Positions 151 to 9,180 of a DNA stretch of 64,000 nt are shown here, one piece after another. The DNA lies in the NCBI GenBank assembly GCA_903909375.1, contig CAIVVM010000053.1, positions 1-64,000 of the forward strand, read 5' to 3'. Numbering within the stretch: position 1 is the stretch's first letter; each line of letters opens with the position of its first letter. Under the pieces are notes generated by a model. It ran no database searches, had not been told where the DNA came from, and worked only from the letters and a program-made list of their open reading frames with translations. Source of the DNA: an uncultured Alphaproteobacteria bacterium (GTDB lineage Bacteria > Pseudomonadota > Alphaproteobacteria > Caulobacterales > Caulobacteraceae). The position numbers and the translations under genes are program-made.

Positions 151-210
151 CCTTTCCCGCCGCAGGCGGGAGAGGGGGACCGCCGGCCAAAGAGCCGGTG
201 GTGGAGAGGG
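151..210 (+). repeat. Palindromic repeat A1 (left copy)
   Basis: This 60-nt unit reappears inverted at 612-671 with only a few mismatches. It contains a small hairpin (CCCGCC-GCA-GGCGGG) followed by a larger one (ACCGCCGGC-CAAAGA-GCCGGTGGT). The larger stem differs from its partner copy by a compensatory G/C flip. The two copies bracket the DUF559 gene. It is REP-like in size, but I cannot assign it to a named family. Confidence 0.85.
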
Positions 211-221
211 AAAGCGGCTGC

Positions 222-599
222 TCAGGACGACAAACGCGCCATCTGCTCAACCGCCTGCAGGATCAGCCCATCTGCAACCTGACCAAGGTTCCGATAGATC
301 TCGCCAGCGCCAACCCGCGCAACACTGATCCCCTGCCGCCCCAACCAATAGTCACGCGCCGCATCCTTGGCCTGGGCGTCTTCGCCCCAATGGGTCCGCC
401 CGTCGACTTCCACGGCCAGCCTCGCGGCGGGACAGTAGAAATCGACGATGATCGAGCCGATGGGAACCTGGCGTCGAAAGATCGGCTGCCCCTTGCCGCG
501 ACCCTTCAGCCGCGACCACAGCATGACCTCTGGCTCCGTCATCTCTCTCCGGAATCGCCGCGCCCGGGTTGCAATCCGTGTTGATGGCCTTGACGTCAA
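222..599 (-). CDS. DUF559 domain endonuclease-like protein
   Basis: A protein of about 125 residues of the DUF559 family, which has the PD-(D/E)XK/Vsr-type nuclease fold; its cellular role is not established. The family core is visible: RARRFRREMTEPE, then FRRQVPIGSIIVDFYCP, then AVEVDGRTHW, giving the D...ExDG..H acidic/His set expected of the active site. The first ATG falls inside the conserved RARRFRREM block. A TTG at 599 is therefore the likely start, with the GGAGGG supplied by the edge of repeat A2 about 8 nt upstream. The gene lies exactly between inverted copies A1 and A2. The reading frame extends upstream through A2, but that stretch is translated repeat rather than protein. Family is confident; start and function are not. 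Confidence 0.8.
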   Translation of the reverse strand: MTSRPSTRIATRARRFRREMTEPEVMLWSRLKGRGKGQPIFRRQVPIGSIIVDFYCPAARLAVEVDGRTHWGEDAQAKDAARDYWLGRQGISVARVGAGEIYRNLGQVADGLILQAVEQMARLSS

Positions 600-611
600 T
601 GCGTCCGCCCT

Positions 612-671
612 CCCTCTCCACCACCCGCTCTTTGGCGGGCGGTCCCCCTCTCCCGCCTGCGGCGGGAAAGG
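612..671 (-). repeat. Palindromic repeat A2 (right, inverted copy)
   Basis: Inverted copy of the 151-210 unit, same 60-nt length. Its main stem reads CCGCCCGC-CAAAGA-GCGGGTGG. The loop is identical to A1 and the stem pair is swapped (G:C to C:G), which is covariation in favour of a folded RNA or single-stranded DNA form. Its inner edge supplies a purine-rich GGAGGG next to the likely TTG start of the DUF559 gene. Confidence 0.85.
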
Positions 672-8501: not shown

Positions 8502-8555
8502 CCTTCTCCCCTTGTGGGAGAAGGTGGCAGGCGAAGCCTGACGGATGAGGGGTCG
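8502..8555 (+). repeat. Palindromic repeat B1
   Basis: A 54-nt unit with a perfect 9-bp stem CCTTCTCCC-cttgt-GGGAGAAGG (8502-8524), then CAGGC-gaa-GCCTG (8528-8540), then a GATGAGGGGTC tail. Related units occur at 8947-8980, 9026-9080 and 9129-9180. It may also terminate clpA transcription. It is the left bracket of the second DUF559 gene. Confidence 0.85.
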
Positions 8556-8586
8556 AAAACCGGCTCAGAATAGATCACCCTGCGCC

Positions 8587-8937
8587 ATGGCTCGCCCCAC
8601 GACCGTCCCGCAGGCCCGCGCTCTGCGCCGCAACGCGCCGGAAACCGAGCGCTTGCTCTGGAAGTTACTGCGCGATCGAAGGCTGGAAGGATTGAAGTTC
8701 CGGCGACAGGTCCCGCTTGGCCCCTACGTTCTGGATTTTGTCTGCCTGCGATACCGGCTGGTGACCGAGGCGGATGGCCCCTTTCACGAGCCGGCACAGG
8801 ATGCGCTCCGTGACGCCTGGCTGGCGGCAAAGGGCTTTCGCGTCTTGCGCTTCCCGAACACTGACATCCAGCTCAGGGACTGGCAGGTCATCGCGCGCAT
8901 TCTCGAGATCGTCGGAACCCCGCCATCCCAACCATAG
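8587..8937 (+). CDS. DUF559 domain endonuclease-like protein (second copy)
   Basis: A 116-residue DUF559 protein, related to but clearly diverged from the one at 222-599. Shared blocks are RALRRNAPETERLLWKLLRDRR, KFRRQVPLGPYVLDFVC and EADGPFHE, which keeps the D...ExDG..H set expected of the Vsr-like active site; the penultimate block is RVLRFPNTDI. The ATG at 8587 gives the family length. The gene is bracketed by B1 (direct) and B2 (inverted, internally shortened). The product has no signal peptide or membrane segment. Family is sure; the biological role is unknown. Confidence 0.88.
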   Translation: MARPTTVPQARALRRNAPETERLLWKLLRDRRLEGLKFRRQVPLGPYVLDFVCLRYRLVTEADGPFHEPAQDALRDAWLAAKGFRVLRFPNTDIQLRDWQVIARILEIVGTPPSQP

Positions 8938-8946
8938 GCCTGCGTG

Positions 8947-8980
8947 CCCCCTCATCCGTCAGGCTTCGCCCACAAGGGGA
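8947..8980 (-). repeat. Palindromic repeat B2 (inverted, internally deleted)
   Basis: On the minus strand this reads as the B unit but lacks about 12 nt between the CTTGTGG loop and the GCGAAGCCTG hairpin. It begins 9 nt after the DUF559 stop codon and is inverted relative to B1. Confidence 0.8.
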
Positions 8981-9025: not shown

Positions 9026-9080
9026 CCTTCGCCCCTTGTGGGAGAAGGTGGGCCGCGTAAGCGGCTCGGATGAGGGGTCG
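9026..9080 (+). repeat. Palindromic repeat B3
   Basis: A full-length B unit. The outer hairpin is near-identical to B1, but the inner hairpin is GCCGC-gtaa-GCGGC (9052-9065) in place of CAGGC-gaa-GCCTG. The sequence changed while the palindrome was kept. It pairs with B4 as an inverted pair with no gene between them. Confidence 0.85.
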
Positions 9081-9128
9081 ATAAATCTCTCAAGCAAGTT
9101 CTTGAAATCATTCCGATAGATCGGCGTG

Positions 9129-9180
9129 ACCCCTCATCCGTCAGGCTTCGCCTGCCACCTTCTCCCACAAGGGGCGAAGG
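9129..9180 (-). repeat. Palindromic repeat B4 (inverted)
   Basis: A full-length B unit on the minus strand with the CAGGC-gaa-GCCTG inner hairpin. It is separated from B3 by 48 bp of gene-free sequence. The 8938-9329 interval contains only these repeats and the upstream region of the next gene. Confidence 0.85.

Follow-up and report, generated by a model that had tools for sequence, protein, structure and literature searches.

Inverted palindromic repeats around DUF559 nuclease genes: a probable mobile unit in Caulobacteraceae and other bacteria

Repetitive extragenic palindromes (REPs) are common in bacteria, and outside genomes with REP-associated tyrosine transposases (RAYTs) their source is open. 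In the RAYT system, an enzyme gene lies beside inverted REPs tagged with GTAG, the REP type is matched to the enzyme lineage, and gene-free REP doublets (REPINs) are the dispersed unit. Other described palindromes include the CGTC REPs of alphaproteobacteria, which form inverted dimers and for which no dedicated transposase was reported (Di Nocera 2013, PMC3733652), and miniature inverted-repeat transposable elements (MITEs), i.e., short non-autonomous inverted-repeat units, to which the CIR repeats of Caulobacter belong according to a mention in PMC10969869. DUF559, a domain whose label still gives its function as unknown, appears in other settings: PMC9403480 assigns a DUF559 gene to the EDxHD homing family, and PMC1829167 notes a fusion of DUF559 to a SPOUT methyltransferase. 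Here, we describe DUF559 genes that lie between inverted REPs, beginning with a cassette (cassette 1) near the start of a 64,000-nt stretch of DNA (the window: positions 1 to 64,000 of contig CAIVVM010000053.1, assembly GCA_903909375.1) from an uncultured member of the Caulobacteraceae. No paper pairing DUF559 or GIY-YIG genes with REPs was found in searches of the openly licensed literature of PubMed Central; the original prediction, made from the letters of the window, knew of no such description.

Cassette 1 consists of three features:

146-217, + strand: left REP, two adjacent hairpins followed by a G-rich edge toward the gene (inverted-pair search, arm alignment)
222-599, - strand: stand-alone DUF559 nuclease gene, with the TTG start at 599 assumed and unproven (open reading frame, profile match)
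605-676, - strand: right REP, an inverted copy of the left REP, identical at 67 of 72 positions (arm alignment)

The inverted-pair search found one pair here, these two REPs, with 72 nt per arm. Inverted units of 60 nt around a single DUF559 gene had been predicted; they are there, and a little longer. The compensatory G:C/C:G exchange predicted for the main hairpin is also real, but is one single pair: hairpin 2 reads ACCGCC[G/C]GC-CAAAGA-GC[C/G]GGTGGT, with the loop CAAAGA kept in both arms. The open frame of the gene extends to 698 and its Pfam match spans 264-575. The gene is a member of DUF559 (PF04480, E-value 3.9e-24, 85.1 bits compared with a curated cut-off of 20.6) and matches DUF559 and MTES_1575 in Pfam, and nothing else. 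Its fold lies near a homing endonuclease domain and Vsr, and is of the Vsr/EDxHD PD-(D/E)XK kind. Acidic and histidine residues, putative counterparts of the catalytic residues of Vsr, are invariant across 40 sequences; nuclease activity is predicted.

The likeness to RAYTs drawn in the original prediction holds for anatomy; the enzymes differ in kind. As in the RAYT system, an enzyme gene lies between inverted REPs, gene-free REP pairs keep the orientation seen in cassettes and would be the dispersed unit, REP type is matched to protein clade, and target duplication was not detected in DUF559 cassettes. In contrast, DUF559 is a PD-(D/E)XK hydrolase rather than a Y1/HUH enzyme and hence not a RAYT, its cassettes occur several per genome, and the GTAG tag of RAYT REPs is absent from 146-217, the repeat that was checked for it. 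We read the REP-DUF559-REP cassette as a unit that may work like RAYT and REPIN by analogy, without being a member of that system. Unlike EDxHD homing endonucleases (I-Bth0305I) and Vsr, DUF559 is bracketed by its own palindromic repeats, and cassette 1 has neither an intron nor an adjacent methylase gene.

To score bracketing, the 450 nt to the left of a gene were aligned locally with the reverse complement of the 450 nt to its right, and a gene was called bracketed at a score of at least 20; cassette 1 scores 59.5. In the genus of the window, probably Phenylobacterium to judge from its best named relatives, 87 of 113 DUF559 genes were bracketed (7 of 8 in its own genome, 19 of 25, 46 of 60 and 15 of 20). 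The first three groups are 93 of 111 listed places (8 own, 25 and 60; 18 partial, weak or unfetched places omitted), and the last 20 were picked by hand from a longer list. Among 80 named loci from several phyla, taken from one scan of genome contigs and being the best matches to a DUF559 alignment and an uneven sample, 62 were bracketed. The two samples overlap in a few loci: the flanks of L137 are those of L032, and L090/L332, L093/L336 and L115/L337 share repeats and scores. Bracketed named loci came from Caulobacteraceae, Sphingomonadales, Hyphomicrobiales and Phycisphaerae and, with a single locus or a few loci each, from Chloroflexi, Nitrospinota, Clostridia, Dormibacterota, Uhrbacteria and Peregrinibacteria; within these 80, the three Nitrospira loci and the TA06 locus were not bracketed. 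In a plasmid collection, 4 of 12 DUF559 loci were bracketed, and an E. coli DUF559 gene in a record filed as plasmid (L230, 1501-1803) had no inverted REP pair. Plasmids of Synechocystis sp. B12 (L231, L241) have DUF559 genes, accompanied by C-rich repeats, next to or inside DUF1156 genes and genes annotated as PglX of the BREX system.

Arbitrary positions were bracketed in about 0.2% of cases: 3 of 1752 sliding positions in the window and in a further 395 kb from its genome, one of the three being the second DUF559 gene of the window, and 9 of 3018 positions away from DUF559 in the 80 named loci, the nine including L140 and L156 (score 450, resembling a masked run). None of 30 ParE toxin genes was bracketed at a threshold of at least 18 (30 of the listed places), and none of seven UvrC-like genes (other UvrC-like, weak or partial places omitted). 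With slid positions, ParE and UvrC all low, bracketing is therefore not general to small or accessory genes; the pairing seen in the original prediction is real and far more widespread than the window alone could show. Fused domains were considered as a reason for unbracketed genes and set aside, because short and long frames did not differ significantly (64 of 80 and 8 of 13 bracketed, respectively).

Despite divergent sequences, the REPs are built alike: a C-rich tract is joined through a loop to the G-rich tract that complements it, in many cases a second hairpin follows, and a further G-rich tract comes last. In 95 bracketed cassettes, the G-rich edge faces the gene in 88 on each side, and a C-rich gene-facing edge lies upstream in four. 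The edge class is the same on both sides in 57 cassettes, unclassified on both in 25, and differing or classified on one side in 13. Compensatory changes preserve the hairpins. With the structure taken from the left REP only, 66 pairs changed on both sides still pair, compared with 17, 10 and 6 for slid pairings; 1628 of 1919 pairs are unchanged, and a further 52 one-sided changes keep pairing. This count is preferred to one from a two-row consensus (87 compared with 7 expected), which is biased by construction. A G-tract is recognisable in 93 of the 95 cassettes; of these, 86 contain a start codon in frame beyond the tract, and in 34 cases the distance from the tract to the most upstream such start is 4-12 nt. 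The ribosome-binding site proposed at the repeat edge of cassette 1 is thus plausible, as that edge lies shortly before the in-frame TTG at 599, the start itself being unproven.

REP type tracks DUF559 protein clade. When five REP edge classes (54 labelled rows) were placed on a tree of 95 DUF559 proteins, 13 changes were needed compared with a mean of 27.5 for shuffled labels, and none of 200 shuffles reached 13; the tree has about 105 columns and many weakly supported forks, and near-copies inflate the clustering. The genome of the window (G000) shows the same on a small scale. Seven of its eight DUF559 genes (all except L001) have inverted palindromic repeats on both sides; these repeats fall into at least four sequence types but follow one architecture, with the G-rich edge toward the gene. 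Three REP classes were distinguished (L002, L003, and the group L004-L008), and in other species those of L002 and L003 accompany the same protein clades. Composition bias as the source of the repeats was excluded, as REP classes vary inside one genome and track protein clade. The ratio dN/dS was 0.05-0.23 in five of eight DUF559 pairs, the other three being not computable; in those comparisons, the gene is under purifying selection.

Pairs of REPs also occur without a gene. In three genomes of the genus (G031, G041, G044), all 26 close pairs of one REP class (class A), among those listed, are tail-in, as in cassettes; the pairs picked from G043, G023, G048 and G046, genomes from which pairs alone were typed, comprise two tail-in and two tail-out pairs and one whose REPs point the same way. 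Gene-free spacers measure 27-28 nt (G031, G044) and often 54-56 nt (G041, G043), and class-A spacers with a DUF559 gene inside measure 385 and 394 nt. Spacer similarity is 0.60-0.65, and up to 0.76 in the better orientation, compared with 0.40-0.45 for flanks. One G041 pair, L415, aligns at 84-85% with both ends of the cassette L004 of the window's own genome, with the gene middle missing, and still encodes SLVFEKLATALRMIE; the same genome has a full cassette (L421) whose left REP is identical to that of L415 over the 52 nt compared. By this alignment, L415 derives from a DUF559 cassette whose gene was removed by an internal deletion. In this respect the pairs resemble MITEs; the DUF559 units differ from MITEs and classical insertion sequences (ISs) in having no detected target duplication and a nuclease gene as parent. 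Related REP classes have the structure of REPINs, i.e., inverted REPs with a short fixed spacer in many dispersed copies. The exact repeat of cassette 1, with two copies, is not dispersed in this way, and is one variant within the larger REP architecture.

Of 62 genomes with a strong DUF559 match, 54 have class-A REPs, compared with 11 of the 39 others (Fisher 2e-9); these 39 include seven with weak matches (E-value above 1e-20, including G080 at 3.3e-7) and 12 unlisted ones assigned by elimination. Genomes with more DUF559 genes tend to have more class-A copies (Spearman 0.73 over 101 genomes of the genus, 0.63 within carriers), in tests that ignore relatedness and use many genomes in hundreds of contigs. 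A second REP type was found in 16 of 40 genomes, all within the 26 with a stand-alone DUF559 gene, and in none of the 14 without.

Occupied and empty sites can be compared at several places. In Sphingomonas parapaucimobilis, a 451-bp REP-DUF559-REP unit lies in the pntAA/pntAB junction, and the same junction in G425, which belongs to another genus, has a 493-bp cassette of another REP type. Among 30 listed loci of the class, G425 alone has a cassette there; 19 have gaps of 4-57 bp (4 bp in G245, of the same family) and in eight the junction is filled by 152-340 bp of other sequence, which in one case includes a different palindromic dimer. Cassettes here and short gaps in relatives, which belong to other genera or species, indicate that both REPs arrived with the gene. 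G112 and G344 have unrelated genes at the junction, as seen in two Sphingomonadaceae genomes (L244, L245), and the spot seems tolerant of insertion. For cassette 1, whose left side is the contig end, which limits the comparison, 29 other rpmG loci inspected by eye had no similar cassette; L061 has a lone hairpin. Over about 90 kb at 95% identity, G004 has a REP pair where G089 has 10 nt, and a CGTC-like dimer shows the opposite presence and absence. Downstream of clpA in three close genomes (L181, L188, L195), G004 has a REP pair and G089 and G083 a lone hairpin; the corresponding region of the window's own genome differs from those of the relatives. Target duplication was not detected in 95 cassettes with approximate borders (mean longest shared word 3.31, compared with 3.27 when shuffled), and alignments by MAFFT of L014, L028 and L030 with loci of the own genome did not resolve cassette borders.

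That a DUF559 gene and its inverted REPs are one mobile unit is well supported, and we hold it with high confidence. The best explanation as a whole, to which we incline by somewhat more than an even chance, is a unit whose nuclease acts on its own REP and so drives its spread. The two inverted REPs would be its ends, as the evidence above supports, and its sole gene a Vsr/I-Bth0305I-type nuclease. This nuclease would recognise its own REP, folded as a hairpin in single-stranded DNA, and cut or nick it. DNA ending in hairpins, whether it includes the gene or not, would then be captured by host repair at a break, without duplication. Gene-free REPIN-like pairs would be miniatures, produced when the interior of a cassette was deleted and then spread in trans; they would keep moving as long as the genome has a matching DUF559 protein and decay once it is gone. 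Such decay could explain genomes with REPs and without the gene. We know of no strand-transfer chemistry for PD-(D/E)XK hydrolases; to act as a RAYT in the literal sense, DUF559 would therefore depend on host repair.

Several points weigh against this explanation. For a hydrolase without a known strand-transfer partner, self-driven spread is chemically uncertain. Below the score threshold fall 26 of the 113 genus genes, 18 of the 80 named loci and 8 of the 12 plasmid-collection loci, and in the hairpin test 143 one-sided and 30 two-sided changes break pairs. The exact REP of cassette 1 has just two copies in its own genome, with up to 3 mismatches allowed, and the copy-number pattern of class A, subject to the limits of its tests given above, is not letter-for-letter that of this repeat. 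Six genomes without a strong DUF559 match (G087, G019, G052, G098, G004, G066) have 5-21 class-A REPs, eight DUF559 carriers have none, and in G031, which has class-A pairs, none of the three DUF559 loci examined is a class-A cassette. The original prediction had named DUF559 genes without flanking repeats, and repeats in genomes without DUF559, as findings that would speak against it: both exist, as exceptions and not as the rule.

The cassettes could alternatively spread by homing, with DUF559 cutting cassette-less alleles, host recombination copying the gene in, and the REPs serving as homology arms or targets. This we regard as unlikely: cassettes lie at many unrelated sites, and several empty sites have no DUF559-type REP (pntAA/pntAB in G245, the rpmG loci by eye, and G089), which argues against the REP as target. 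It is less likely still that DUF559 is passive cargo, merely carried between ends used by a Y1 transposase or IS. Y1 enzymes do move the REPs of other systems, as described in PMC3116915, and REPs persist in some DUF559-free genomes; but Y1_Tnp matches are rare in the genus (6 of 40 genomes), REP class tracks DUF559 clade, and ParE, another small accessory family, is not carried (0 of 30). Least probable is that DUF559 is a mismatch-repair or regulatory nuclease of the host and the hairpins are merely terminators, insulators or ribosome-binding elements. REP edges can indeed act as Shine-Dalgarno sequences, and PMC12907096 describes a DUF559 protein of Caulobacter, VsrA, that provokes the SOS response on loss of the methylase ScmA and is proposed as an enzyme of very short patch repair. 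A host function nevertheless leaves unexplained the matched inverted pairs, which ParE genes lack, as well as the matching of REP to clade, the gene-free pairs and the insertion of whole units.

Small GIY-YIG genes, tested as a control, behaved differently from ParE and UvrC: 12 of 43 scored at least 20. Ten of the 43 (L202, L204, L206, L207, L209, L213, L272, L273, L275, L276) have on both sides, tail toward the gene, a repeat (TCATCCCGG...CCGGGACCC) called CGTC-like from its resemblance to the published description. CGTC REPs are, like the DUF559 repeats, alphaproteobacterial palindromes that form inverted dimers, and differ from them in sequence; the CGTC-like repeats flank small GIY-YIG genes, not DUF559. 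The small GIY-YIG nuclease is thus a candidate for the enzyme of CGTC REPs, and this pairing would generalise the principle of a nuclease with its own REP. More tentatively, and with a little less than even confidence, there may be a wide and so far unrecognised class of mobile elements that end in REPs and carry no gene other than one for a hydrolytic nuclease. In several phyla this would be the Vsr-like DUF559, together with C-G-G palindromes; GIY-YIG, with CGTC REPs, would be an independent second case. Many short palindromic repeats of the non-RAYT kind might then be miniatures of such elements, spreading through cuts specific to DNA structure and through host repair, with no strand-transfer enzyme involved. 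The pairing of a nuclease and its REP, seen in several phyla, offers a concrete candidate enzyme for orphan repeats, and DUF559 gains a genomic context and a predicted, testable substrate. If the nuclease drives the spread, a hydrolase and host repair alone would suffice to propagate mobile DNA.

The window contains a second cassette, with a REP-only pair directly behind it (8502-8979 and 9026-9180, respectively):

8502-8554, + strand: left REP of cassette 2, of a different REP type (...CTGACGGATGAGGGG; flank scoring, repeat comparison)
8545-8937, + strand: second stand-alone DUF559 gene of the window (open reading frame/profile match)
8947-8979, - strand: right REP of cassette 2, shortened (by eye)
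9026-9180, no strand assigned: REPIN-like gene-free inverted REP pair of the cassette 2 REP type, spacer about 45 nt (repeat comparison)

Elsewhere in the genome, the L004 cassette (1150-2000 region) is flanked by two similar stretches; by eye, both look like the C-terminal end of a potassium transporter gene, as though this place had undergone duplication. In the window, an IS-like end (AGAGCGTGACCGCATCTGACGG...) in positions 1-145 abuts the left REP of cassette 1, and the same end interrupts the right REP of the L003 cassette, near the right end of L003, as if REPs had served as its targets.
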